Assembly: GCF_000069225.1 (NCBI RefSeq)
Contig: NC_010407.1
Coordinates: forward strand, 2,604,001 to 2,668,000
Direction of reading: 5' to 3'
DNA length: 64,000 bases
Source: Clavibacter sepedonicus
Lineage (GTDB): Bacteria > Actinomycetota > Actinomycetes > Actinomycetales > Microbacteriaceae
A program made the translations under genes and the position numbers. The notes beneath the pieces were generated by a model that was not told the origin of the DNA, ran no database searches, and worked only from the letters and a program-made list of their open reading frames with translations. Shown here in pieces: positions 907 through 38,075 of the stretch (positions are counted from its first letter, which is position 1; every line of letters begins with the position of its first letter).

Positions 907-2136
907 ATGACCTCCCTCATCCGCTCCGAGCGCGTCGCCGCCGGACTCCTCCTCCTGGCCGCCGTCGTCGGCCTCGTCGTCGCGAACACCCCGGCAGGGC
1001 CCGGCCTCATCGCGTGGGCCGACGGGCACCTCGCCGTCCCCGCGATCGGCGTCGACCTGTCGCTCCGCCACTGGGTGAGCGACGGCCTGCTCGTGGTCTT
1101 CTTCTTCATCGTCGCCGTCGAGCTCAAGCACGAGTTCCTGGCCGGCGGGCTGGACAGCGTCTCCGCGGCGCTCGTGCCCGCCATCGCGGCGGTAGGCGGC
1201 GTGGCGGTGCCGGCGGGCGTGTACCTCGCGATCACCGCGGGCAGCGGCCTCGAGCGCGGGTGGCCGGTGCCCACCGCGACCGACATCGCCTTCGCGCTGG
1301 GCGTCCTCGCGGTCTTCGGACGCGGCCTGCCCGCCGCCGTCCGCGTCTTCCTCCTCGCGCTCGCGGTGCTCGACGACCTCATCGCCATCGTGATCATCGC
1401 GGTCTTCTTCACGACCGACCTCGACGTGGGCGCGCTCGGCCTCGCGGTCGCGGGCGTCGTCCTGTTCGCGGTCGTGGGTCGCCTCGGCGTCGGGCGGACG
1501 GGAGCCGCACGGATCGCCGTGGTCGCGCTGCTGGTGCTCATCGCCCTGGTGACCTGGTGGGCGACGCTCTCCTCCGGGATCCACGCGACCATCGCGGGCG
1601 TCGCGCTCGGCTTCGCGCTCCCCCGCCTCTCGGGCCTCCGCGCGGCGCACGCGCTGGAGCCGGCCTCGAACGGCATCGTCCTGCCGCTGTTCGCGTTCTC
1701 CGCTGCGCTCGTGGCGATCCCCGCCGTCGGGCTGGCCGAGCTGGCCCCGGCGTTCTGGGGCATCGCGCTGGCGCTCCCGCTCGGGAAGCTCGTCGGCATC
1801 ACGGCGGGCGGGCTGCTCGGGGCATGGGTCGCGCGCCGCCGGGGCGCTCCCAGCGGGCTCGCGGGGCGGGATCTCGTGACCGTCTCGCTCCTCGGCGGCA
1901 TCGGCTTCACCGTCTCGCTGCTGATGAGCGAGCTCGCGTTCGCCGGCCTCGACGAGGTGCGCGACGAGGGCACGCTCGCGGTGCTGCTCGGCTCGGGCGT
2001 CTCGATCGTCGCGGCGGCCGTTACGCTGTCGATCCGGAGCCACCAGGCCCGCCGTGGAAGTGCGGCCGCGGAGGAGGACGACGCGACGCGCGACGACTTC
2101 CCGGCGCACGTGGACGGCGGGCCGGCCCCAAGCTGA
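907..2136 (+). CDS. nhaA: Na+/H+ antiporter NhaA
   Basis: Integral membrane antiporter exchanging cytoplasmic Na+ for H+ in pH and salt homeostasis. It has 409 aa, close to the usual 380-430. The family core is present: TATDIAFALG at residues 123-132 and the adjacent aspartates D156-D157 in LDDLIAI, matching the D163/D164 pair of the E. coli protein. Many hydrophobic segments run through the sequence up to a charged tail of about 35 residues. ATG at 907 was chosen because the protein then begins with the short cytoplasmic segment typical of NhaA; the open frame upstream to 754 looks non-coding. The gene is monocistronic, divergent from mazG. Confidence 0.95.
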   Translation: MTSLIRSERVAAGLLLLAAVVGLVVANTPAGPGLIAWADGHLAVPAIGVDLSLRHWVSDGLLVVFFFIVAVELKHEFLAGGLDSVSAALVPAIAAVGGVAVPAGVYLAITAGSGLERGWPVPTATDIAFALGVLAVFGRGLPAAVRVFLLALAVLDDLIAIVIIAVFFTTDLDVGALGLAVAGVVLFAVVGRLGVGRTGAARIAVVALLVLIALVTWWATLSSGIHATIAGVALGFALPRLSGLRAAHALEPASNGIVLPLFAFSAALVAIPAVGLAELAPAFWGIALALPLGKLVGITAGGLLGAWVARRRGAPSGLAGRDLVTVSLLGGIGFTVSLLMSELAFAGLDEVRDEGTLAVLLGSGVSIVAAAVTLSIRSHQARRGSAAAEEDDATRDDFPAHVDGGPAPS

Positions 2137-2301
2137 TCCTGGAGCGGCGTCCACTCGTAGACCGCCCGTGGAGGGGCGAACGCCGCCTCAGTGCTTAAGC
2201 GCGGACGGCTAACCCGCAACACGAGCTCGTGTCAATAGGCCCGAACGACCAAGACGACAGCCCATACCCTGACCTCTCAACCGTCGTGATGAGGAGAGCC
2301 C

Positions 2302-3402
2302 ATGGAGCCAGCGAGACCAGCATCCCTACCCCAATCCCGTCGATTCATACATACGTTCGCGTTGGCCTCGATTGCGCCGTGCTTTTGGATAGCCGGGCTC
2401 GTGGTGAACATCGCATCTCCGAGTAGCGCTAGCGCGCTTCCTCAATTCGCATGGGTGTCGGTCTGGGGCGTGACCCTCGGGGACGTGACGACGAACTCGC
2501 TATTGTCCTACCTCGCAGTGACAATAGTCTTGTTTGGAATCTCGCTCGGAGGGCAATCGACCTTCGAGGACCAGAAGCACCAAGAACGCGTGAGACGCAG
2601 CGTTGGCGCCGTCGGCGTGTTGATGGCAGTCGCGGCTCTCGTCCTCACGACCTTCGCCGTCGGGGCGACATTCAGTGATGTGCGGAGAATCCCCGCGCTT
2701 GTCGTGATACTCCCTGCAGCCGCCACTTGCTGGCTGCTCGGCATGGAGGTCGGCCGCTTCGTCGTACCCGATCACGAGACCCAGCTGACCGGGACGGCTG
2801 CCAGCTTGTCCAAGGCAGAGGATCGTCTTCGTCGAGTCGAAAGCTCGATCCCCGAGGCAGCCAGCGTGAAGCCGCCGCTATGGATAATACTCGGCCACGC
2901 ATTCGCCTTTTCGGTCATTGCAGAATTAGCCATCGAACAAAAATCCGAGAATACGTGGGTCATCGCATGCGTAACTTTCGTCGGCATGGCGATGGGTCTC
3001 ATTGTCTTCACACAACTCGGCGCAGGTTCCCTCGGGGTCGAGAGCCAGTTGGCCGCCTTCGGCATGTGCGCAATGGCTTTTATCCTCTACGCTGTGCTTC
3101 TTTCCATGTTCAACATCATCGCCCTCTTCACCAGCGAAGCTCCAGTCGAATGCATAGCCGTTCTGTACGGCGCGGAATTGCTGGTTCCAATACTCTGCTC
3201 ACACTTGTGGCGAATGCTCCCTGAGGCTCTGTTCACGGCCTCCCTCTCCGGCGCGATGGCCTGGGTATTTCGGAACGACTCGCTCAGGACGGTCCGAAAT
3301 CTGACGAGGAGACTCAATGACCTCGAGCGTCTTCGCGCAACCGCAGCACCGAAAGGCCTCCGTGAACGGCTACGCGCGGCCGGACGGACCTTCGTGAGTT
3401 GA
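2302..3402 (+). CDS. Orphan multi-pass membrane protein, lower GC
   Basis: Not recognised. The 366-aa product shows about seven hydrophobic stretches (roughly residues 18-40, 60-82, 100-120, 128-148, 195-215, 220-240 and 255-280), a charged loop with some coiled-coil character near residues 170-190, and a basic C-terminal tail. A ribosome site (GAGGAG) lies about 8 bases before ATG 2302. The base composition is visibly less GC-rich than in nhaA and mfd on either side, and codons ending in A/T are common, so recent acquisition is likely. No mobile-element gene or flanking repeat was seen. It stands alone, with nhaA upstream and mfd facing it. Confidence 0.7.
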   Translation: MEPARPASLPQSRRFIHTFALASIAPCFWIAGLVVNIASPSSASALPQFAWVSVWGVTLGDVTTNSLLSYLAVTIVLFGISLGGQSTFEDQKHQERVRRSVGAVGVLMAVAALVLTTFAVGATFSDVRRIPALVVILPAAATCWLLGMEVGRFVVPDHETQLTGTAASLSKAEDRLRRVESSIPEAASVKPPLWIILGHAFAFSVIAELAIEQKSENTWVIACVTFVGMAMGLIVFTQLGAGSLGVESQLAAFGMCAMAFILYAVLLSMFNIIALFTSEAPVECIAVLYGAELLVPILCSHLWRMLPEALFTASLSGAMAWVFRNDSLRTVRNLTRRLNDLERLRATAAPKGLRERLRAAGRTFVS

Positions 3403-8717: not shown

Positions 8718-10739
8718 CTACCGGACGGACGGGTCCCCGGTCGACGCGTCCGCCGAGGCCGCGGCCGAGGCCGGGGCCGAGGCCGGCGCGGGCGATCCCG
8801 GCGCGGGCGGCATGGACTGCCCGACCCGGAGCCGCAGCCCGTCGTGCACGCCGTCGACGACGTCCTCGAACGCGACCGGCGTGCCGAGCGTCGCCGAGAC
8901 GTAGACGCTCACCACGGTGGCGAGCGAAACGAAGGCGTCGTCGACCGTGACGCCGGCCGGGCGGCCGACGCGCAGGGCGTCGGCGATGTCGTCGTACTGG
9001 CGGTAGTGGCCCTCGAGGTAGGTGTTGTCCAGGCGCGGCGAGCGCGGCAGGTCGGCGTCGTGGATCTCGAGCTCGGCGTCGTTGCGCACGTCGGCCTGGG
9101 CGGGCACGCCCGACGCGGGCGCCGCGTGGAAGTAGGTGAGGGATCCGGCCTCGATGACGGCGGATCCGCGCGTGCCCTGCACCTGCACGCGGGTGTCGAG
9201 GCCCGGGTACCCGGCGGTGGTCGCCTGCAGCGTCGCGAGGGCGCCGGACGCGAAGCGGATCACGGCGACTGCGACGTCCTCGACCTCGATGCCGTCGTGG
9301 GCGAGCAGCGCGGTCTGCGCGTACACCTCGACCGGGCGGCCGAGGTAGGAGACGAGCAGGTCGAGCGTGTGCACGCCCTGGTTCATGAGGGCGCCGCCGC
9401 CGTCGAGGTCCCACGTGCCGCGCCAGTGGCCGGAGTCGTAGAAGCCCTGGCTGCGCCACCACGGAGCGCTGGCGACGGCCGAGGTGAGCCGGCCGAGCCG
9501 GCCGGAGCGCACGGCCCGGTCGACGACGACGCTCGACGGGTTGAAGCGGTGCTGGCTGATGACGGTCGAGAGGATCCCCCGCCCGGCGGCCTCGCGCGCG
9601 AGCTCCGCGATGCGGCGGCCGCGCGCGAGGTCGACGTCGAGCGGCTTCTCGATGACGACGTGGAGGCCGGCGGCCAGCGCCTCCTCGGCGAGGCCGATGT
9701 GCAGGCCGCTGGGCGTGCAGATGACGACGAGCTCGGCGGCGTCCGCGCGGATCAGGTCGCCGAGGTGCGCGAAGACGCGCGGGCGCTCGGCGCGCAGCTC
9801 GTCGACGAGCGCGGCGACGCGGAACTCCGGGTGCTCAGCGAGGACGCGCGCATGGTGCGTGCCGATGACGCCGCAGCCGACGATCGCGACGCGGATGGGC
9901 TCGTGGACGACGGCGGCGGGCGCTCCCTCGACGGCGGCGGGCGCGGCGTCGGCCTCGCGGACCGCGGCGGACGGGACGGCGGCGGCGTGGTGCCCGGGCT
10001 CGGACGGCGCTGCCGCGTCCGCGGCGGCGCCCGTGTGGGGCACGTCGGACCCCGACCGCGCCTCCCGGACGAGCGCGGGGACGTCCGCCTCGGGCACCGC
10101 GGCGGCGGGCTCGGTCGAGGTGGCCGGCGCGTCGTCGACCCGGCCGGGTGACGCCGTGCGGCCGCCGGGCAGCAGCTCGCGGACGGCCGCGTCCGCGAGC
10201 GCGACGGGATCGTCGGTGATGTCGAGCGTGATCCCCTGCTCGTCGTCGCCGAGCGGCTCGAGCGTGCGCAGCTGCGACGACAGGAGGCTCGACGGCATGA
10301 AGTGGCCCTCGCGTCCGCCGAGGCGCTCGGCCAGCAGATCGTGGTCGCCGACCAGGTGCACGAAGACGGCGTCGGGCGCGGCGGCGCGGAGGATGTCGCG
10401 GTAGGAGCGCTTGAGCGCGCTGCACGCGACGACGGGTCCGCCCTCGGGACGACCGGCGAGCGCGCGGCCCACCTCCTCGAGCCAGGGGCGGCGGTCGTCG
10501 TCGTCGAGCGCGTGGCCCTCGGCCATCTTGCGGCGGTTGGCCTCGGGGTGGAGGTCGTCGCCGTCGATGAACGGGACGCCGGCGTCCTGCGCGAGGAGCT
10601 CGCCGACCGTCGACTTCCCGGATCCGGAGACCCCCATCACGATCACGGGCGGGAACGGGCGGACGGCGTCGATGCGGATCACTCCCTGCGGTTCGGTGAG
10701 GAACTCGTGCGGCGCGACCGTCTGGGTGCGCTCATCCAT
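8718..10739 (-). CDS. Fusion of gluconokinase and Gfo/Idh/MocA-type oxidoreductase
   Basis: One open frame of 673 aa joins two enzymes. Residues 30-190 are a GntK-type gluconokinase (ATP + D-gluconate to 6-phosphogluconate): P-loop GVSGSGKST at 36-44, then DGDDLHP and the CSALKRSYRD segment. Residues 195-280 are an Ala/Pro/Glu-rich linker. Residues 282-640 are a NAD(P)-dependent oxidoreductase with Rossmann motif GCGVIG (288-293) and the EKP triad (364-366), ending in an Ala/Pro/Ser tail. ATG 10739 fits the kinase start; a longer form from 10811 is possible. Divergent gnd, 84 bases away, uses 6-phosphogluconate, which supports the kinase call. The oxidoreductase substrate is unknown. Confidence 0.9.
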   Translation of the reverse strand: MDERTQTVAPHEFLTEPQGVIRIDAVRPFPPVIVMGVSGSGKSTVGELLAQDAGVPFIDGDDLHPEANRRKMAEGHALDDDDRRPWLEEVGRALAGRPEGGPVVACSALKRSYRDILRAAAPDAVFVHLVGDHDLLAERLGGREGHFMPSSLLSSQLRTLEPLGDDEQGITLDITDDPVALADAAVRELLPGGRTASPGRVDDAPATSTEPAAAVPEADVPALVREARSGSDVPHTGAAADAAAPSEPGHHAAAVPSAAVREADAAPAAVEGAPAAVVHEPIRVAIVGCGVIGTHHARVLAEHPEFRVAALVDELRAERPRVFAHLGDLIRADAAELVVICTPSGLHIGLAEEALAAGLHVVIEKPLDVDLARGRRIAELAREAAGRGILSTVISQHRFNPSSVVVDRAVRSGRLGRLTSAVASAPWWRSQGFYDSGHWRGTWDLDGGGALMNQGVHTLDLLVSYLGRPVEVYAQTALLAHDGIEVEDVAVAVIRFASGALATLQATTAGYPGLDTRVQVQGTRGSAVIEAGSLTYFHAAPASGVPAQADVRNDAELEIHDADLPRSPRLDNTYLEGHYRQYDDIADALRVGRPAGVTVDDAFVSLATVVSVYVSATLGTPVAFEDVVDGVHDGLRLRVGQSMPPAPGSPAPASAPASAAASADASTGDPSVR

Positions 10740-10822
10740 CCTACGAGACGCTCCCCGACGCCCCGCTGACGGTCGGGGGCCCGGGCGTAGCCTGAGGACG
10801 ACTGTCGACAAGGAGGCATCAG

Positions 10823-12277
10823 ATGTCAGATGACCAGCAGGCCACGGCGAACATCGGGGTGGTGGGGCTCGCGGTGATGGGGTCGAACCTCGCCCGCAAC
10901 CTCGCCAGCCGCGAGGGCAACACGGTCGCGGTGTACAACCGCACCACCCAGAAGACCACCGACCTCGTCGAGGAGCACCCCGAGGCGGGCTTCGTCGCCG
11001 CCACCACCATCGAGGAGTTCGCCGCCTCGCTGCAGCGCCCCCGCACCGCCATCATCATGGTCAAGGCCGGACGCGGCACGGACGCGGTCATCGAGCAGCT
11101 GACCGAGGCGTTCGAGGAGGGCGACATCATCGTCGACGGCGGCAACGCGCTGTTCACCGACACCATCCGCCGCGAGAAGGAGGTCCGCGCGAAGGGCCTC
11201 CACTTCGTCGGCGCCGGCATCTCCGGCGGCGAGGAGGGCGCGCTCAAGGGCCCGAGCATCATGCCCGGCGGCACGGCCGAGGCGTACGAGACCCTCGGCC
11301 CCATCCTCGAGTCGATCGCCGCGGTCGCGGAGGGCAAGCCCTGCGTCACCCACATCGGCACCGACGGCGCCGGTCACTTCGTGAAGATGATCCACAACGG
11401 CATCGAGTACGCCGACATGCAGCTCATCGCCGAGTCGTTCGACCTGCTGCGGCGCGTCGGCGGCCACGAGCCCGACGCGATCGCCGACGTGTTCGAGGAG
11501 TGGAACGGGGGCGACCTCGAGTCGTACCTCATCGAGATCACCGCCGAGGTGCTCCGGCAGAAGGACGCCGCGACCGGGAAGCCTCTCGTCGACGTCATCG
11601 TCGACCAGGCCGGGTCCAAGGGCACGGGCGTCTGGACCGTCCAGAACGCGGTGGGCCTCGGCGTGCCGGTGGGCGGGATCGCGGAGGCCGTGTTCGCGCG
11701 CGCCGTGTCCTCCAAGCCCGAGCAGCGGAAGGCCGTGCAGGCGACGATCACGAGCCGTCCGGAGATTCAGTCCGGCGGCGACACCTTCGAGGACGACGTG
11801 CGCGCCGCGCTCTACGCGAGCAAGGTCGTCGCGTACGCGCAGGGCTTCGATGCGATCGAAGCGGGCGCGAAGGAGTACGGCTGGGACATCGACAAGGGCA
11901 AGGTCGCGGAGATCTGGCGCGGCGGATGCATCATCCGCGCGCAGTTCCTCAACCGCATCGTCGAGGCGTACGAGAAGGACTCCGGCCTCGCGACGCTGCT
12001 CGAGGACCCGTACTTCGCCAAGGCCGTCGCCGACGGCGAGCAGGCCTGGCGCCGGGTCGTCTCGGTCGCCGCGCTGTCGGGGATCCCGGTGCCCGGCTTC
12101 GCGTCGGCGCTGAGCTACTACGACTCGCTCGCCTCCGAGCGCCTGCCCGCCGCCCTCGTGCAGGGCCAGCGCGACTTCTTCGGCGCGCACACGTACCACC
12201 GCACCGACAAGGAGGGCACCTTCCACACGCTGTGGTCCGGCGACCGCTCCGAGGTCGAGGCCGAGGACACCCACTAG
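10823..12277 (+). CDS. gnd: 6-phosphogluconate dehydrogenase, decarboxylating
   Basis: Oxidative pentose-phosphate enzyme converting 6-phosphogluconate and NADP+ to ribulose-5-phosphate, CO2 and NADPH. The 484 aa correspond to the long (dimeric) form. The Rossmann GLAVMGSNLARN begins at residue 15, with NRT at 39-41 as expected for NADP. The substrate loop GISGGEEGALKGPS starts at 132, and the catalytic K188 with H191-N192 lies in FVKMIHNG. An AAGGAGG-like site precedes ATG 10823. It is divergent from the gluconokinase fusion and ends at a strong hairpin. Confidence 0.97.
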   Translation: MSDDQQATANIGVVGLAVMGSNLARNLASREGNTVAVYNRTTQKTTDLVEEHPEAGFVAATTIEEFAASLQRPRTAIIMVKAGRGTDAVIEQLTEAFEEGDIIVDGGNALFTDTIRREKEVRAKGLHFVGAGISGGEEGALKGPSIMPGGTAEAYETLGPILESIAAVAEGKPCVTHIGTDGAGHFVKMIHNGIEYADMQLIAESFDLLRRVGGHEPDAIADVFEEWNGGDLESYLIEITAEVLRQKDAATGKPLVDVIVDQAGSKGTGVWTVQNAVGLGVPVGGIAEAVFARAVSSKPEQRKAVQATITSRPEIQSGGDTFEDDVRAALYASKVVAYAQGFDAIEAGAKEYGWDIDKGKVAEIWRGGCIIRAQFLNRIVEAYEKDSGLATLLEDPYFAKAVADGEQAWRRVVSVAALSGIPVPGFASALSYYDSLASERLPAALVQGQRDFFGAHTYHRTDKEGTFHTLWSGDRSEVEAEDTH

Positions 12278-12297
12278 CGGCCAGCCGACCGTCGCCG

Positions 12298-12330
12298 ACG
12301 CCCCGCCGCCCGTCCCGGGCGGCGGGGCGT
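12298..12330 (+). terminator. Hairpin terminator after gnd
   Basis: Perfect 14-bp inverted repeat (12298-12311 with 12317-12330) around a 5-base loop, 20 bases after the gnd stop. No long T-run follows, as is usual in GC-rich actinobacteria. Confidence 0.75.
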
Positions 12331-12347
12331 CTGTCACACTGGGGCGG

Positions 12348-12722
12348 ATGGACGAGGACGAGCACCCGGAGCTCGCGGGCTACGAGCCGCACCGCCCGCG
12401 GAGCCTGCGCAGCAGGCGCACGCTGCTCGTGATGCGGGTCGTCGTCGTGGTCGGCATCGTCAGCCTGCTGCTGCCCGGCGTCGTGACGATGGTGCGCGTG
12501 GGCGCGAACACAGCCGACATGGCCTGCGCCGACTTCGTGGCGTACGAGCGTCCCGACTCCCCCTCGTACGAGGTGCGCTTCCAGCTCTTCGGACCCGGCG
12601 TCGTCGGGTACGAGTGCTATACGCGGTACGCCTTCGGCGGCGACGAGCACATCGTGTCGCTCGGGCTCATCCCGTCGGGGCGCGTGGCGCGCGAGGTCGT
12701 CGAGCGGAACTCCCGGGACTGA
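12348..12722 (+). CDS. Small single-pass membrane protein of unknown function
   Basis: Not recognised. The 124-aa product has a charged N-terminus with an Arg-rich segment, one membrane helix at about residues 27-50, and an extracytoplasmic C-terminal part with two cysteines in the CADF and YECYTRY segments. The topology suggests an inside N-terminus and an exported domain of about 70 residues. It begins 18 bases after the gnd terminator and is followed 6 bases past its stop by its own hairpin, so it appears to be a separate transcript. Confidence 0.7.
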   Translation: MDEDEHPELAGYEPHRPRSLRSRRTLLVMRVVVVVGIVSLLLPGVVTMVRVGANTADMACADFVAYERPDSPSYEVRFQLFGPGVVGYECYTRYAFGGDEHIVSLGLIPSGRVAREVVERNSRD

Positions 12723-12728
12723 TCCCGA

Positions 12729-12748
12729 GGCCGCCCGCGTGGGCGGCC
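12729..12748 (+). terminator. Hairpin terminator
   Basis: Perfect 8-bp inverted repeat (12729-12736 with 12741-12748) around a 4-base loop, 6 bases after the stop of the 124-aa membrane protein gene. Confidence 0.6.
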
Positions 12749-12766
12749 GCACCGCGGTGGTGGGGC

Positions 12767-12942
12767 CTAGGCCGCCCCGTCGACCATGCTCGTGACGGAT
12801 CCGTCGTCGAACACCTCGTGGATCGCGGCGAAGCCATCCCGGTCTTCTTCAGCGTATTCGCGGCGAGGACGGTAGTGGGGCCGGTGTCGATGAGGTCGCC
12901 GACGGGGAGGTAGACGCGACCCCCGGCGTCCCTGGCGAGGAC
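12767..12942 (-). pseudogene. Decayed remnant of the prs 3' end
   Basis: This stretch is a degenerate copy of the last part of the prs gene that lies at 14267-15244. Bases 12767-12824 match prs 14267-14324 with only a few differences and encode the prs C-terminal HEVFDDGSVTSM segment, including the same TAG stop. Bases about 12850-12942 encode, in another frame, RVYLPVGDLIDTGPTTVLAA, corresponding to prs residues about 223-242, with the first Asp of the catalytic DDLIDTG changed to Gly. The roughly 50 residues between the two blocks are missing. It is not functional. The following 200 bases up to 13158 contain nothing recognisable apart from the likely promoter region of the next genes. Confidence 0.8.
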
Positions 12943-13158
12943 ATGGGCCCGAATGCTTGCGACCGGATGCCGCGGCACCGCCCCACCTCAGCGGGCAGTA
13001 CAGCCGTCCTGCAAATCTCCTGTGCAGTTCTCACACGCGCAGGTCGAGGGCAACCTATGTTCTGAGCACCAGCCGGATCCCCTAGTGAGTGGATCTGCCG
13101 ACGACGCGAAGGAGATCCTTACCATGCATAGTCCCCAGGCGCGAAACGCGGATACCTG

Positions 13159-13410
13159 ATGCCGTTCTACGACGCCTTCTGGTCTGTCGCCATCGGCACC
13201 ACCGCCCTTCTGGCCGTGATCGCGCTCATTCAAGTCGTGCGACGCCGAAGCACCATCACCACGAATTCGGCCGCGATCTGGATCATCGTCATTCTCATCG
13301 CGCCGATAGTGGGGGCCTTGATGTGGTTCCTCGTGGGCAACAGGACTACACCGAGCCACAGCCAGGCAGTTCGTCATACTCATCTCGGCCACACGGACAG
13401 GAGCGCATGA
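13159..13410 (+). CDS. Small membrane protein with PLDc_N-like domain
   Basis: The 83-aa product has two hydrophobic helices (about residues 8-27 and 38-61). The second helix, IWIIVILIAPIVGALMWFLV, has the Pro-x-x-Gly pattern of the phospholipase D/cardiolipin synthase N-terminal membrane domain (PLDc_N), here without any catalytic domain. Such free-standing two-helix proteins are often found beside secreted peptides, where some serve as self-protection factors; that role is only inferred here. Its TGA overlaps the ATG of the next gene, so the two are translationally coupled. The base composition is lower in GC than the core genes around it. Confidence 0.7.
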   Translation: MPFYDAFWSVAIGTTALLAVIALIQVVRRRSTITTNSAAIWIIVILIAPIVGALMWFLVGNRTTPSHSQAVRHTHLGHTDRSA

Positions 13411-14171
13411 TGCGGAGTCCCAGGAGATGGAGCTCCCTGACTGCCGGAGCAGTCCTCGCCCTGCTCGCCTTGGCTCAGCCCGCGAACGCGGCTCCCCATT
13501 CTCACCGCGCCTTCGATGACACCGCGCTTCGTCAGCACATGTCGTCGCTTGGGATACACGCAGAGGTGCAGGGCCGACTCATCGTCAAGTTGAAAGCCGG
13601 CCAGCGTGTCGATTCTATGACAGACACCGCATCCGTCTCCACGCAGGTGAGAATCAAAGACGGCTACAGCGTGAGTATCGATACTTACGCAGACGGCTCT
13701 GTTGGCGAGACGGGCAACGAGATCGGCCGGCCGGCCACTCCTGACGAGGTGATGGTGATGCAGGCTCGGGCGAAACCATTCGCCTCCCCTTACTACCACG
13801 GTGATTCTGTAGACCATGAGGGCCTCATCCAGCCGGACGCGACGGTCGGAATCACGAGTTGCGTGCGCGGCCGTAACGCGGGAGTCGTGTATGCACAGAA
13901 TTGCCATGTGTATTACAACGGTGTAACCGCCAGCAACAGCTTCAACGCGAACTACCAGCAGTATCCGGGAGGCGGCAAGGCTCAGTACATCGACGGTACG
14001 GCTAAGTTCGTGAGTTTCGTGCAGTCCGTGAACAATGAGCACGTGGATGTTTACGACAACGGGTCTCGAATCCGATACTCGTTCAGCACGAGCTTGAATG
14101 GCTTCGGCAACATCCCGGGCTTTCTTCAGTTGAAGGTCACTGGGACAGGAGTCTACGTCTCACGAGGTTGA
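13407..14171 (+). CDS. Secreted protein of unknown function
   Basis: The 254-aa precursor has a clear signal peptide: basic start (MMRSPRRW), hydrophobic core SLTAGAVLALLALAQ and a likely cut after ANAA, near residue 30. The mature part (about 225 aa) is polar, beta-rich in appearance, with two cysteines (in TSCVRG and QNCHVY) and Tyr/Asn-rich sequence such as SFNANYQQYPGGGKAQY. No known family was recognised. The start (ATG 13407 or 13410) overlaps the stop of the PLDc_N-like gene. A, T-rich codon use and the position between a prs remnant and prs point to acquisition. It ends at a strong bidirectional hairpin. Confidence 0.75.
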   Translation: MMRSPRRWSSLTAGAVLALLALAQPANAAPHSHRAFDDTALRQHMSSLGIHAEVQGRLIVKLKAGQRVDSMTDTASVSTQVRIKDGYSVSIDTYADGSVGETGNEIGRPATPDEVMVMQARAKPFASPYYHGDSVDHEGLIQPDATVGITSCVRGRNAGVVYAQNCHVYYNGVTASNSFNANYQQYPGGGKAQYIDGTAKFVSFVQSVNNEHVDVYDNGSRIRYSFSTSLNGFGNIPGFLQLKVTGTGVYVSRG

Positions 14172-14202
14172 CGGAGCGTCAACTCGAATCAACAGCATCC
14201 GA

Positions 14203-14240
14203 TGCAGATGGGTCGGCACTCTCGTGCCGACCCATCTGCA
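14203..14240. terminator. Bidirectional hairpin terminator
   Basis: Perfect 17-bp inverted repeat (14203-14219 with 14224-14240) with a 4-base loop, placed between the convergent secreted-protein gene (+) and prs (-). It can serve both. Confidence 0.85.
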
Positions 14241-14266
14241 TGCAACAACGTCCTGGGACAGTCAGA

Positions 14267-15244
14267 CTACGCGGCCCCGTCGAACATGCTCGTGACGGAT
14301 CCGTCGTCGAAGACCTCGTGGATCGCGCGGGCGAGCAGCGGCGCGATGGGCAGCACGGTGAGCTTGTCCCAGCGCTTGTCCTCCGGGATCGGCAGCGTGT
14401 CGGTGACGACGACGGAGTCGATGTGCTCGCTGTCGAGGATCTGCGTCGCCGGGTCGGAGAAGACCGCGTGCGTCGCCGCGACCACGACGCCCGTCGCGCC
14501 GTTCTTCTTGAGCGCCTCGGCGGCGGAGACGATGGTGCGGCCCGTGTCGATGAGGTCGTCCACCAGGAGGCACACGCGTCCGGCGACGTCGCCGACGATC
14601 TCGTGGACGGTGACCTGGTTGTGCACCTTGGGGTCGCGGCGCTTGTGGATGATGGCGAGCGGGGCGCCGAGCTTGTCGCTCCAGATGTCGGCGACGCGCA
14701 CGCGGCCCATGTCGGGCGAGACGACGGTGAGGGTCTTCGAGTCGAGCACCGAGCGCATGTGCTCGAGGAGGACGGGCATCGCGAAGAGGTGGTCGACGGG
14801 GCCGTCGAAGAAGCCCTGGATCTGCGCGGCGTGGAGGTCGACCGACATGATGCGGTCGGCGCCGGCGGCCTTGAACAGGTCGGCCACGAGGCGGGCGGAG
14901 ATCGGCTCGCGGCCGCGGCCCTTCTTGTCCTGCCGGGCGTAGGGGTAGAACGGGGCGACCACGGTGATCCGCTTGGCCGAGGCCCGCTTCATCGCGTCGA
15001 CCATGATGAGTTGCTCCATGAGCCACTCGTTGATGGGCGCGGTGTGCGACTGGATGACGAACGCGTCGCTGCCGCGGACGCTCTCGTCGTACCGGATGTA
15101 GAGCTCGCCGTTGGCGAAGGTCCGCGCGTCGGTGTGCACGAGGGTCGTCTCGAGCTCCTCCGCGATCTGCTCGGCGAGCTCGGGGTGCGCGCGACCCGTG
15201 ACGATCACGAGCCGCTTCTCTCCGGCGGTCTTGATTGCGGACAC
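14267..15244 (-). CDS. prs: Ribose-phosphate pyrophosphokinase (PRPP synthetase)
   Basis: Makes PRPP from ribose-5-phosphate and ATP for nucleotide, His and Trp synthesis. The 325 aa are full length. FANGE at residues 43-47, the RQDKKGR loop near 104-110, the flexible KRRDPK loop (201-206) and the PRPP-binding VDDLIDTGRT (228-237) are all intact. It lies 33 bases downstream of glmU on the same strand, the usual bacterial glmU-prs pair. A decayed copy of its 3' end lies at 12767-12942. Confidence 0.97.
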   Translation of the reverse strand: MSAIKTAGEKRLVIVTGRAHPELAEQIAEELETTLVHTDARTFANGELYIRYDESVRGSDAFVIQSHTAPINEWLMEQLIMVDAMKRASAKRITVVAPFYPYARQDKKGRGREPISARLVADLFKAAGADRIMSVDLHAAQIQGFFDGPVDHLFAMPVLLEHMRSVLDSKTLTVVSPDMGRVRVADIWSDKLGAPLAIIHKRRDPKVHNQVTVHEIVGDVAGRVCLLVDDLIDTGRTIVSAAEALKKNGATGVVVAATHAVFSDPATQILDSEHIDSVVVTDTLPIPEDKRWDKLTVLPIAPLLARAIHEVFDDGSVTSMFDGAA

Positions 15245-15277
15245 GGGACTCCGTCTCGTCAGTGCTGCTCGGTGTGC

Positions 15278-16804
15278 TCAGGCGTCGGACGCGTCGTCCG
15301 CAGGCCCGTCGGCGGCCTCGACGGCGGCCCGGGCCTCGGGGGTGCCCGGTCGCTTCGCCTCGGTCCAGCCGACCATGTTGCGTTGCGGCGCCACCGAGAT
15401 GCCGAGTGCGCCGGGCGGGACGTCCTTGCGGATGACGGCACCGGCACCCGTGTAGGAGCCGGTACCGATCCTAACCGGTGCGACGAGGACGTTCCGCGAG
15501 CCGAGGTGCACGTGGTCGCCCACCTCGGTGCGGTGCTTGGACACGCCGTCGTAGTTCGCGAACACGGCGCCCGCGCCGACGTTGCTGTGCTCGCCGATGG
15601 TCGCGTCGCCGACGTAGCTGAGGTGCGGGACCTTGCTGCCCGCGCCGATCTCGACGTTCTTCGTCTCGACGTAGGCGCCGATCTTGCCCTCGTCGCCGAG
15701 GCGCGTGCCCGGGCGCAGGAAGGAGAACGGGCCGACGGTCGCGCGCGCGCCGATGACGGCGAGCTCCGCGTCGGTGCGGCGCACGGTCGCGTCCTCGCCG
15801 ACCTCGGTGTCGCGGAGGGTCGTGTCGGGGCCGACCGTCGCGCCGGCCGCGACCGTGGAGGCGCCGAGGATCTGCGTGCCCGGGAGGACCGTGACGTCGG
15901 CGGCGAGCGTGGCCTTGACGTCGATCCACGTGGTGCGCGGGTCATGGATCGTCACGCCCGCCAGCTGCCAGCGGCGGATGATTCGCGCGTTCAGCTCGGT
16001 GGCCGCGGCCGTGAGCTGCACGCGGTCGTTGATGCCGGCGACGAGCCAGCTGTCGCGCACGGGCAGGGCCTCGATGGATCCGCCCGCGCGGCGGATCACG
16101 TCGGCCGCGTCGGTGAGGTACTTCTCGCGCTGGGCGTTGTCGGTGCCGATGGCGCCGAGCGTCTGCCGGAGCGCCTCGGCGTCGAAGACGTAGACGCCGG
16201 CGTTGACCTCGTCGATGCGGAGCTGCTCGCCCGTCGCGTCCTTCTGCTCGACGATGGCCTCGAACGCGCCGTCCTGGCCGCGGATGATGCGGCCGTTGCC
16301 GGTCGGGTCGTCGAGGCGGGCGGTGAGGAGCGTGAGGTCGTTGCGCGCCTGGCGGTGCGCGGAGACGAGCGAGCGGAGGGTCGCCGCGTCGAGCAGGGGC
16401 ACGTCGCCCGAGAGCACGACGACCTGGCCCGTGAAGCCGTCGGGCAGGGCCGTGATGCCGACCTCGACTGCGCGGCCGGTGCCGGGGATCTCGTCCTGGT
16501 CGACGATGAGCGCGTCGGGCGCGAGCCGGCTGACGACGTCGACGACCTGGTCGCGGTCGTGGCGCACGACGGTGACGACGTGGCGCGCGCCCAGCTCCTC
16601 CGCGGTCGCGAGCACGTGGCCGACGAGCGGGAGACCCGCGAGGGGGTGGAGGACCTTGGGGAGGCGCGAGCGCATGCGGGTGCCCTGGCCGGCCGCGAGG
16701 ATCACGACCGCGATGGACGGACTGCGCGGCTCGCCGTCGACGTCGAGCTCGCCCGTCACGATGGGGATCTCACGCGTCGTCGGCGTGCTGTCTGAGTCGG
16801 TCAT
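15278..16804 (-). CDS. glmU: Bifunctional GlmU: GlcNAc-1-P uridyltransferase / GlcN-1-P acetyltransferase
   Basis: Makes UDP-GlcNAc for peptidoglycan. The 508 aa start with an extra 30 residues before the nucleotidyltransferase domain, whose signature LAAGQGTRM is at 36-44 with the PK pair at 49-50. The C-terminal left-handed beta-helix acetyltransferase begins near residue 290, with hexapeptide repeats and the GAVFANYDG segment. An Ala/Glu-rich tail of about 30 residues ends the protein. It forms an operon with prs and starts about 50 bases from the tRNA-Gln gene. Confidence 0.96.
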   Translation of the reverse strand: MTDSDSTPTTREIPIVTGELDVDGEPRSPSIAVVILAAGQGTRMRSRLPKVLHPLAGLPLVGHVLATAEELGARHVVTVVRHDRDQVVDVVSRLAPDALIVDQDEIPGTGRAVEVGITALPDGFTGQVVVLSGDVPLLDAATLRSLVSAHRQARNDLTLLTARLDDPTGNGRIIRGQDGAFEAIVEQKDATGEQLRIDEVNAGVYVFDAEALRQTLGAIGTDNAQREKYLTDAADVIRRAGGSIEALPVRDSWLVAGINDRVQLTAAATELNARIIRRWQLAGVTIHDPRTTWIDVKATLAADVTVLPGTQILGASTVAAGATVGPDTTLRDTEVGEDATVRRTDAELAVIGARATVGPFSFLRPGTRLGDEGKIGAYVETKNVEIGAGSKVPHLSYVGDATIGEHSNVGAGAVFANYDGVSKHRTEVGDHVHLGSRNVLVAPVRIGTGSYTGAGAVIRKDVPPGALGISVAPQRNMVGWTEAKRPGTPEARAAVEAADGPADDASDA

Positions 16805-16852: not shown

Positions 16853-16927
16853 TGGCTCCGCCCCCAGGATTCGAACCTGGACCTCACAGCTCCAAAGGCT
16901 GAAGTGCTGCCGTTACACCAAGGCGGA
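16853..16927 (-). tRNA. tRNA-Gln (anticodon UUG)
   Basis: Reading the minus strand from 16927, the 7-bp acceptor stem (TCCGCCT with GGGCGGA), a D-arm, the anticodon loop CTTTGGA with anticodon TTG, the T-loop GGTTCGAATCC and a genome-encoded CCA (16853-16855) are all present. It lies between glmU and the lower-GC nuclease gene, a location typical for integration hot spots. Confidence 0.95.
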
Positions 16928-16982
16928 CCGCTCACGGTCCGGCCGTGCGCACGATGAGTCTGCCAGACCGGCGACTGCCGGA

Positions 16983-18374
16983 TCAGCGCGCGACGGGTAT
17001 GGCGGCCTTACCCGGCGCCGGTGCCACCGGCATCACGCTTCCGGACTCCGTAATTGGCGCGCACGCTTCTTGCACGAAACGCTCGAAGTCAGTGACCATC
17101 GATTCCTCAACTAGCAGACCGACACCGAGCTCATTCAGCACAGCAGACCACTCTTCGCCGGGGAAAATCTCTACGGCTATCACTGGCCTCACAGGCAGGG
17201 AGTTTCGGACCGAATGACAGTACTTGAGCACCTGCCCGAGTGCCATGCGCATCTGATGTTCGATATTGCTCTCGCTTGCCGATTTAACTTCAACAATGAA
17301 CGCTTGCGAACCCCCGAGCAAGGCGAGATCGAACCGCGGCCCTTGAATCGACGAGCTAAGACACTGGAACCCCATTGCTTCGGCAACGACAGCTACGGCG
17401 TTCTGAATGCGTGCGTGACTGCGCACCGCTCGCTCGTTGCCTGCGTAATTCTCCGCAAAGTAGTGCGGTAATTCGACATCGGCACCCTCATTTGCGCTTA
17501 CGTACGGCACAAATCCACCCGATCCTTCGACGACCTCTCGTGCCCGAAGAATCGGTTCCGGCACTGAAGTCTCGGAATCATGCTGGTCTAATTCGATTCC
17601 ATGGACCATCTGCCAGGCCCGCAAGAGGAGCGCGTTCCAAGAGCCGCATAAGTTGCGCACGGTACTTCCGCTGGGAAATATCTCCTGGGATCGTTGCCAC
17701 TCGTCGTATGACGCCGCGGTAGGCGGACGACCAGTCTCACGCCAGCATGAGATGACCGCGGCAACCGCAGTAGCTTCGTCGAAGCGTTTATCTTGGCCAG
17801 AGTGGGGGTTAGCCGGTAAACCCGCGGCCTCCAGCGCGGATCGCCAGCTGCCGAATCGAATGGCCATGACCTGCATCCCGGGCGCGGGACGACCATCTTC
17901 GAGCCTAGGATTTTGAATCGCATGCCTCTGGTAGGCCTGAGCCGACAGAGTGCGACCTTCTGCGACAGCCGCGGCCTGCAAGCATCCTATCAACTCCTCA
18001 TTAGAATACCGCTTCGCCCCTAGGCGCGGCACTCGCGTCAGGACTGCGTAATCCGGCACCGTTTCGGAGATAAAACGCGCGACCCATGACCTTTGAAGCC
18101 CCACATCGGCTGCCACCTCGTCAAGATCACGAAGACGAAGGAAGCTTTCTGTCATCGCCGTCGCCTTTTCGGAGACTGCCCTCAAGCGCCTTAGGTCGAG
18201 AGTCTCACCCAACGAACGCGGCGAGATGCCAAGCGCGCGCAGCCGCCGACGAATAGCCTCCCGAGTCACCCCCTCCACCAGACCCACTTCGTCCAACGTC
18301 AAAAGATCTTCCCTATAGAGTCGCAGCCATTCAGGGGCTTCGGGAGTCTGCCTTACCGGGAGCACCAACACCAT
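16983..18374 (-). CDS. HTH - HNH_repeat - PD-(D/E)XK predicted nuclease
   Basis: The 463-aa protein reads as four modules. Residues 22-60 and 80-110 look like two helix-turn-helix units (LTLDEVGLVEGVTREAIRRR and RDLDEVAADVGLQRSWVARF). Residues 121-186 and 195-257 resemble two homing-endonuclease-associated DNA-binding repeats (HNH_repeat), each ending in the typical GSW motif (FGSWRSALEAAGL and CGSWNALL). Residues 315-430 look like a PD-(D/E)XK nuclease core: D349 in RFDLALL, E362-x-K364 in FIVEVKS, and a later helix with Q381 and Y385. No HNH or LAGLIDADG catalytic domain is visible. GC is clearly lower than in the neighbours. It lies 55 bases beyond tRNA-Gln. A role in defence or as a selfish endonuclease is inferred; the target is unknown. 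Confidence 0.75.
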   Translation of the reverse strand: MVLVLPVRQTPEAPEWLRLYREDLLTLDEVGLVEGVTREAIRRRLRALGISPRSLGETLDLRRLRAVSEKATAMTESFLRLRDLDEVAADVGLQRSWVARFISETVPDYAVLTRVPRLGAKRYSNEELIGCLQAAAVAEGRTLSAQAYQRHAIQNPRLEDGRPAPGMQVMAIRFGSWRSALEAAGLPANPHSGQDKRFDEATAVAAVISCWRETGRPPTAASYDEWQRSQEIFPSGSTVRNLCGSWNALLLRAWQMVHGIELDQHDSETSVPEPILRAREVVEGSGGFVPYVSANEGADVELPHYFAENYAGNERAVRSHARIQNAVAVVAEAMGFQCLSSSIQGPRFDLALLGGSQAFIVEVKSASESNIEHQMRMALGQVLKYCHSVRNSLPVRPVIAVEIFPGEEWSAVLNELGVGLLVEESMVTDFERFVQEACAPITESGSVMPVAPAPGKAAIPVAR

Positions 18375-18551
18375 GACAGAGTCCTTTTACTTGGGAGACC
18401 GAGTGGATTGCAAATTGCTCTACGGCCATATGCGCGCGGCAGGGAGCGATGAACGAAAAGCGTCGTCTCTCGATGTTCGCATCAGCCGCCTCACGCCTCT
18501 ACCCCTCTTACGCGGGTCTCTTCCACGCGCGGGGACCGGCATGATGGGGGG

Positions 18552-36931: not shown

Positions 36932-37064
36932 GAGCCCATCATCCCCGACGCGGCCGCGTGCTCACGGGTCGATGCCGAGCGTCTCCGCGTGCTCCGCCGG
37001 TCGCCGGCGAAGGATCCGCCCGCGGGCCTTGCCGCGCACCGGTCGCGCGCGGGAGCCTGTGCGC

Positions 37065-37274
37065 ATGGATCCGCACGAGCGCCGCGCCGCCGTCCGCCGA
37101 CGCGTGACCGCCGCGATCGCCGCCGTGCTGCTTGCCGCCGCGATCGGGGTCGCCGCAAACACGTGCGGAGCCGACCTCGGCCTGCTTCTGCTCGTGGCGG
37201 CGTTCGCGCTCCTCACCGCGGGCGCGGGCCTGGGCGTCTCGGCCGTGGGATCCGCCGCGGACCACCCGCGCTAG
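37065..37274 (+). CDS. Possible small membrane protein
   Basis: A 69-aa frame with a basic N-terminus (MDPHERRAAVRRR) and two hydrophobic helices (about residues 15-32 and 39-60), ending in HPR. Its coding pattern is plausible, with high GC at third positions, but no family was recognised and the ribosome site is weak. It is divergent from moeA and upstream of the lower-GC gene at 37350. Confidence 0.5.
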   Translation: MDPHERRAAVRRRVTAAIAAVLLAAAIGVAANTCGADLGLLLLVAAFALLTAGAGLGVSAVGSAADHPR

Positions 37275-37349
37275 TGCGATTTGGCAAGATCAGCACATCG
37301 CGATTCTCCAAAATCACCCGCCGCCGTTTTGACCTGCCATGCTGTTTGC

Positions 37350-38075
37350 ATGGAGAATCTCATCGGCATCATCGGCGTCATGGTCGCGTTTGCTATTTCT
37401 ATCTACTCCCACCGGCAGAATCACCCCAAACGAGAGCTTCGCTACGCGATCGCCCCGTGGAGTCCGCAGGCAGACACGTCGGATGGGACATTAATGCGAT
37501 TGCTGGTGTGGTCAACCGGAAGAGCAGACATTCCCTCAGCGCAGTTTGACAGTGGCCATCCGATAGTCTTCGTATTCAGCGCCCCTGTATCTCCACAATT
37601 TGGAGTGACCGAGACGGCCCCCCAGTGGTCGCCGGCATTCACATCACCGACCGAGTTTCGGATTCCGACGAGACTGCTCCGGACTGACTTCCGCGTCCAA
37701 GTTCCATTCCAGGCAAGCGAGCCGTTCCTCGTAACCGTCAGCAATCCACTTATCGACGTGCCGATCTTGAGAGACTTAAAGGCAGAAAAGACGACAGTGG
37801 CGTCGCAGGAGCATGCAATTCAAAAATCTCGTGCTCGTGCTCGCGTTTCACTCCTCGCCATAGCTTCGTGGTTGACTGCTATCAGTTTTATCACGTTGAT
37901 TGTTGGGGCCGCGATCAGTGGCAACGACGAGACCCTTGGCGCCGGAATCGGAATTCCCGGAATGTTGGCATTTCCAATCTGCCTTGCACTTCTCGGCGTT
38001 GCCGGATTCAAACGCATGCTGACTCGGGTCAAAATACGTCGCAGGGAACGCGCAAATCAATCCCCGGTGAGCTGA
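37350..38075 (+). CDS. Orphan membrane protein, lower GC
   Basis: Not recognised. The 241-aa product has one N-terminal helix (residues 3-20), a middle domain of about 140 residues without hydrophobic runs and with many beta-type segments (STGRADIPSAQF, VQVPFQASEPFLVTV), then a short charged helix and two C-terminal helices (about 168-190 and 200-220) with a basic tail. The base composition is far less GC-rich than its neighbours, and A/T-ending codons are common. It lies alone between moeA and the PEP mutase-like gene, with no mobility gene nearby. Confidence 0.7.
   Translation: MENLIGIIGVMVAFAISIYSHRQNHPKRELRYAIAPWSPQADTSDGTLMRLLVWSTGRADIPSAQFDSGHPIVFVFSAPVSPQFGVTETAPQWSPAFTSPTEFRIPTRLLRTDFRVQVPFQASEPFLVTVSNPLIDVPILRDLKAEKTTVASQEHAIQKSRARARVSLLAIASWLTAISFITLIVGAAISGNDETLGAGIGIPGMLAFPICLALLGVAGFKRMLTRVKIRRRERANQSPVS

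Follow-up and report, generated by a model that had tools for sequence, protein, structure and literature searches.

What does a restriction-type nuclease gene of low GC content do beside a tRNA-Gln gene, with no methyltransferase close by? The gene lies in a 64,000-nucleotide stretch of the Clavibacter sepedonicus genome (NC_010407.1, positions 2,604,001 to 2,668,000; hereafter the window). An earlier note, made from the letters of this DNA alone, read its product as two helix-turn-helix (HTH) units and two HNH_repeat units followed by a PD-(D/E)XK nuclease, acting as either a defense effector or a selfish element. Our analysis favors defense and makes the selfish alternative less likely: the gene probably encodes a rare, self-sufficient defense enzyme, and we consider it reasonably probable that this is a single-chain, stand-alone restriction-type DNA endonuclease directed against incoming DNA.

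The open reading frame (ORF), Pfam, a structure model and database relatives together confirm that one gene carries this architecture (Table 1). HNH_repeat (PF18780) is found in two stretches of the protein (E 3.2e-15) with a score of 56.6 bits against a curated cut-off of 26. Both units exceed the cut-off, as in other proteins of this family, and both contain the expected GSW motif, as FGSW and CGSW. The N-terminal part of the model is helical, and residues 17-46 match Sigma70_r4 weakly. Apart from a very weak match to XisH at residues 356-396, no other Pfam family was detected; XisH proteins (PF08814) are small, are linked to fdxN-element excision and, unlike the protein here, lack a reader domain. 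NCBIfam gave only a weak regulator match, PADLOC gave none, and PHROGs gave one family of unknown function (residues 156-252, E 3.2e-4). Pfam likewise found no CARF domain, no ATPase domain and, up to E 1, no HNH, LAGLIDADG or GIY-YIG catalytic domain.

Table 1. Coordinates, within the window, of the nuclease gene, its parts and its insertion slot
Feature	Position	Strand	Basis
HTH-HTH-HNH_repeat x2-PD-(D/E)XK nuclease gene, 463 aa	16983..18374	-	ORF; Pfam PF18780; 42 database matches; structure model
HTH 1, sigma-70 region 4-like, residues 15-47	18234..18332	-	Pfam PF04545, E 0.0013, below cut-off; model helices
HTH 2, residues 71-105	18060..18164	-	
HNH_repeat unit 1, residues 123-186, contains FGSW	17817..18008	-	PF18780
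HNH_repeat unit 2, about residues 205-253, contains CGSW	17616..17762	-	PF18780
PD-(D/E)XK nuclease domain, about residues 286-440	17055..17519	-	
D349, catalytic Asp	17328..17330	-	Invariant in 24 rows
E362-V-K364, catalytic E-x-K	17283..17291	-	Invariant in 24 rows
tRNA-Gln (ttg), left neighbor	16853..16927	-	ARAGORN
Non-homologous slot containing the gene	16968..18532	.	Flanks in 17/17 other genus genomes; contents vary

Fold comparison of the model showed that the C-terminal domain contains the conserved alpha/beta core of the PD-(D/E)XK superfamily, a clear match that bears out the predicted nuclease. The D...E-x-K triad is complete in 39 of 43 alignment rows of relatives, the exceptions being a frameshifted sequence (P0002), one with a different C-terminus (P0038), one that is broken (P0040) and an archaeal-looking sequence with repeats only (P0043). 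Metal-dependent DNA cleavage by the domain is a prediction. The two best fold matches, at 11-12% identity, were nucleases of the Can2/Cdn1/Card1 type, and we rejected assignment to these CRISPR ancillary enzymes: the chain lacks their CARF domain, Pfam gives HNH_repeat and HTH, and the N-terminal model is helical. Two of the exceptional rows merit description in their own right. P0038 has the same reader half and then continues into an unrelated C-terminus in place of the nuclease, which reflects either exchanged domains or an error in assembly. In P0002, probably the window's own cluster among the database matches (4 member sequences on 6 contigs, from sources that match those of the window proteins), the frameshift precedes the catalytic E-x-K, and inactivated alleles thus seem to exist in near relatives.

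The nuclease part is far more widespread than the whole protein, and what precedes it varies. An alignment-based scan of 84,980 species genomes confirmed 50 loci, of which two were full-length, two were reader-only and 46 matched mainly the nuclease part. Ten proteins from these loci, two of them reader-only, were scanned with Pfam: L023 contains MTaX1 above the cut-off (E 2.2e-17), L052 and L053 match EVE weakly (L052 also SAD_SRA) below it, L026 has weak Mrr_N and HTH_45 matches, L024 a weak PDDEXK_5 match only, and L037, L038 and L044 gave no match. The PADLOC type IV methyl-directed restriction enzyme matched L027 (E 2.2e-21) and, weakly, L052; the remaining eight of ten scanned proteins had no match. 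A database search with the module of one relative returned 542 proteins, and among 108 Pfam-scanned relatives from the 120 listed, EVE was present in 13 (E <=0.01) and XisH in 18.

To the segment ahead of the module we assigned labels in 225 ORFs with at least 60 aa there, by clustering and custom profiles: 108 are EVE-type, 24 SRA-like, 6 both, 43 HTH/HNH_repeat, 12 MTaX1-type, 9 a segment confined to Micromonosporaceae, 4 winged-HTH-like and 19 none. These proportions are not natural frequencies, because the sample was drawn from biased searches; some rows share a locus or genome (L044/L117, L018/L113). The profiles were made from the same 225 ORFs, seeded partly by hand-chosen motif patterns, the "canonical EVE" seed takes in rows that also have an SRA-like part, and each ORF is taken to start at the first start codon of its open frame. 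In a quick, unrooted tree of 100 of the 204 module rows passing a length filter, a branch with Shimodaira-Hasegawa-like approximate likelihood-ratio test (SH-aLRT) support of 98 separates the 20 HNH_repeat rows from all others, and the EVE label changes 12 times and the SRA label 10; very long branches lead to two single rows and to a pair of SRA-like rows. This pattern fits a single joining of the HTH/HNH_repeat reader to a nuclease lineage otherwise carrying predicted modified-DNA readers, a direction of exchange that we infer.

Two further groups emerged from these searches. The Micromonosporaceae versions (L057, L059, L061-L065, L067, L068) carry an N-terminal segment absent from the other rows of the set. 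A search in the genus Microbacterium brought up a recurrent family (L098-L100, L102-L109, L111-L114) that combines, in a single chain, an SRA-like part and a distant PD-(D/E)XK module; by eye it has E-A-K-K/R-S and then GQ-LDY motifs, and it resembles another predicted type IV enzyme.

What, then, do the HNH_repeat units contribute? The earlier note assumed that they normally accompany HNH or LAGLIDADG enzymes, a premise that our sample does not support. Profile searches at the fetched actinobacterial loci found 41 ORFs with HNH_repeats and without this nuclease. HNH_repeat is detected in all 41, Sigma70_r4 in 16 and HTH_23 in 8, and there is one match each to HNH (PF01844) and HNH_5 (PF14279), possibly in the same protein, so that at most two of the 41 have an HNH domain. 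Because the repeats mostly occur without an HNH nuclease, and often with HTHs, the name of PF18780 is misleading in this sample. Judged from these associations, the units likely form a DNA-reading array. It is conceivable, although we think it improbable, that such arrays are a general modular scaffold in which each unit of about 55 aa reads a few base pairs, serving alone as actinobacterial regulators or silencers and here combined, in a single event, with a type IV-like nuclease core into an enzyme whose specificity might depend on how many repeats it has and of which kind. Among the 5.39 million papers of the literature searched, one mentions the HNH_repeat name or accession, in a table of modeled repeat families.

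The full-length gene is sporadic and of foreign composition. It occurs in 1/18 genomes of the genus, 1/398 of the family and 1/396 of the order, in each case as the window's own copy, and in 1/37 genomes of the genus of Rhodococcoides kroppenstedtii and 2/366 of the genus of Microbacterium hydrocarbonoxydans. Partial matches, to the nuclease or reader part alone, are commoner: counting any match, the figures rise to 2/18, 14/398, 46/396, 2/37 and 19/366, respectively. These genome samples overlap, and the family, order and Microbacterium-genus searches scored at most four candidates per genome. In a database of 5.8 billion proteins, 42 of 7995 scored candidates matched at E <=0.001, under the source names "hypothetical protein," "TPR repeat protein" (two) and "transcriptional regulator with XRE-family HTH domain" (one); P0013, P0016 and P0018 contain the whole reader-nuclease protein, extended at the C-terminus by a TPR array some 250 aa long. 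No match at E 1e-5 was found among 72,556 plasmid and 50,697 phage records. With a GC content of 0.591 against 0.727 for the window, the gene is neither conserved among its relatives nor of core composition, as had been predicted, and the view of it as a horizontally acquired, stand-alone restriction-type nuclease with a DNA reader at its N-terminus is supported.

Comparison within the genus locates the acquisition. In all 17 other genus genomes, homology to the window ends at 16967-16981 and starts again at 18524-18533. The segment between these flanks measures about 450 bp in 11 genomes, 29-71 bp in three and, in one genome each, about 280 bp, about 1 kb and about 4.4 kb; the 450-bp content contains a 130-aa ORF at L073, and the other ten appear similar by eye. 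No remnant of the nuclease was found by tblastn in the fetched loci of these genomes. Because the contents differ between conserved flanks, we regard the site as a gene-turnover slot, in which, to judge from these alignments, the nuclease gene was most likely acquired. The noted adjacency to tRNA-Gln is correct, but the usual integration at a tRNA 3' end does not apply, as the slot lies on the 5' side of the tRNA. A genus relative (G005) does have a distinct insert, 10.3 kb long, at the tRNA-Gln 3' end (C1:1572534 to C1:1582813; L087/L088), the usual attachment side of integrating elements.

The neighbors of full-length copies differ from locus to locus. In the window they are prs, glmU, tRNA-Gln, marR, dksA/traR-type, luciferase-like and LysE genes, with no defense family among them by Pfam; of two ORFs scanned with PADLOC, the MarR protein matches a CARF model weakly. 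In R. kroppenstedtii (L020), pglX and pglW, resembling BREX type 2, are encoded on the other strand, roughly 1 kb upstream, and pglW and a TetR gene form the context of the copy. In M. hydrocarbonoxydans (L021), SduA (Shedu) is directly upstream on the same strand, with type I M, S and R genes and a SocA_Panacea gene nearby; six other ORFs scanned from L020 and L021 gave one weak PADLOC match. The copy in a second Microbacterium-genus genome (L116) adjoins duplicated, partly interrupted secretion-ATPase (T2SSE) genes, and two ORFs there had no PADLOC match. A defense context at two of four full-length loci, or two of three excluding the window, is suggestive as a count that has no background rate beside it. 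At L116 the duplicated secretion-ATPase segments (10627-16537) include 300-nt repeats that are 87-90% identical, and one copy is interrupted by two ORFs. Elsewhere in the window, GC dips occur at 13-14 kb (0.604), where an ORF at 13089-14171 contains a likely secreted protein without a Pfam match, and at 2001-3000 (0.625) and 37001-38000 (0.613).

Related enzymes offer partial precedents. The available part of one study counts EVE-PD(D/E)XK fusions among putative type IV restriction endonucleases (PMC7641849). These fusions too place a reader and a PD-(D/E)XK nuclease on a single chain, and the EVE-matching proteins found here have the same nuclease module; their reader is a modified-base pocket of the PUA superfamily, unlike the HTH/HNH_repeat array. 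The available passages on fusions of PD-(D/E)XK to a winged helix (wH), such as FcyTI, report that 87% of more than 1,000 inspected have no methylase within three genes on either side, that the tested enzymes sense N6-methyladenine in GATC, and that such stand-alone genes are argued to be modification-dependent because they would otherwise be toxic (PMC11037411). The likeness is a stand-alone nuclease with an HTH-class reader; the order there is nuclease-wH and here reader-nuclease. Excerpts of a Clavibacter defense survey mention restriction-modification systems and describe neither CRISPR-Cas nor an enzyme of this kind (PMC11856565). In the literature searched we found no description of an HTH/HNH_repeat reader fused to a restriction-type nuclease; the reader is thus of a kind undescribed for such enzymes there.

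We propose that the N-terminal HTH-HTH-HNH_repeat array (residues about 15-258) would dock on DNA and provide specificity and that the C-terminal domain (D349, E362, K364) would cut, probably as a dimer or beside a second bound copy. Cutting would probably be independent of nucleoside triphosphates, given the lack of an ATPase domain. As the earlier note had stated, no methyltransferase is nearby (none by Pfam among 10 chosen flanking ORFs), and the target is therefore presumably a modification, or a sequence absent from or protected in the host, which would be spared in either case. Because the lineage of the module otherwise carries predicted sensors of modified DNA (EVE, SRA-like, MTaX1) and further kinds of N-terminus, the mode of action is most likely that of a type IV enzyme whose reader has been exchanged, a comparison of working and not an assignment to that class. 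It has in common with the predicted class a module shared among reader-nuclease fusions and the lack of an adjacent cognate methyltransferase; its HTH domains may or may not read DNA modification.

A variant of this reading, whose likelihood overlaps with it, is a type II-like or orphan enzyme cutting a specific sequence in unmodified DNA, with the host protected by a distant methylase or by absence of the site. Reading a particular sequence is typical of HTH and repeat units. In a search of the host genome for three methylase families, PF01555 matched twice on the chromosome, both times far from the gene, PF00145 matched once, on contig C3 (94.8 kb), and PF02384 had no match. Against this variant stand the lack of a methylase among the 10 flanking ORFs scanned in the window and the fact that the nearest methylases in R. 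kroppenstedtii and M. hydrocarbonoxydans belong to other systems (BREX PglX and type I HsdM). We regard this variant as possible, and within the defense reading we give dependence on modification a slight edge over plain sequence specificity.

A homing or selfish nuclease, whose array would recognize one long site and whose cleavage of empty alleles would spread the gene by repair, is rather unlikely. PD-(D/E)XK homing enzymes exist, and sporadic presence, a stand-alone gene, low GC, several helical DNA-reading units and the HNH_repeat name would all suit one. Yet the four full-length copies lie in unrelated contexts (glmU/tRNA/marR, pglW with a TetR gene, type I restriction-modification/Shedu, and secretion-ATPase genes), with no fixed insertion site and no intron or intein host in common; these unrelated sites, with the scarcity of HNH domains among HNH_repeat ORFs, make homing less likely. 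The window copy is intergenic with no split host gene seen, slot contents vary across the genus, the plasmid and phage searches were empty, Pfam finds none of the usual homing catalytic domains in the chain, and type IV-like readers are what the nuclease lineage is associated with. Defense is favored because the module is common to predicted type IV enzymes, two of the three other full-length loci lie beside defense genes and the insertion sites are unrelated. A DNA-binding regulator or repair factor, with a nuclease fold that is structural or acts in repair (compare NucS/EndoMS and Hjc), is very unlikely, as the catalytic residues are invariant in a 24-row alignment and nearly all sampled genomes lack the full-length gene, which would not be expected of a housekeeping repair gene.

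The defense enzyme proposed here adds a reader type, undescribed in the literature searched, to a widespread nuclease module otherwise paired with predicted sensors of modified DNA, and it gives a handle on the role of HNH_repeat units. If the array reads sequence or modification, it would represent a specificity module new to restriction enzymes; if the host is spared without a methylase, the gene poses directly the question of how self is discriminated from foreign DNA.
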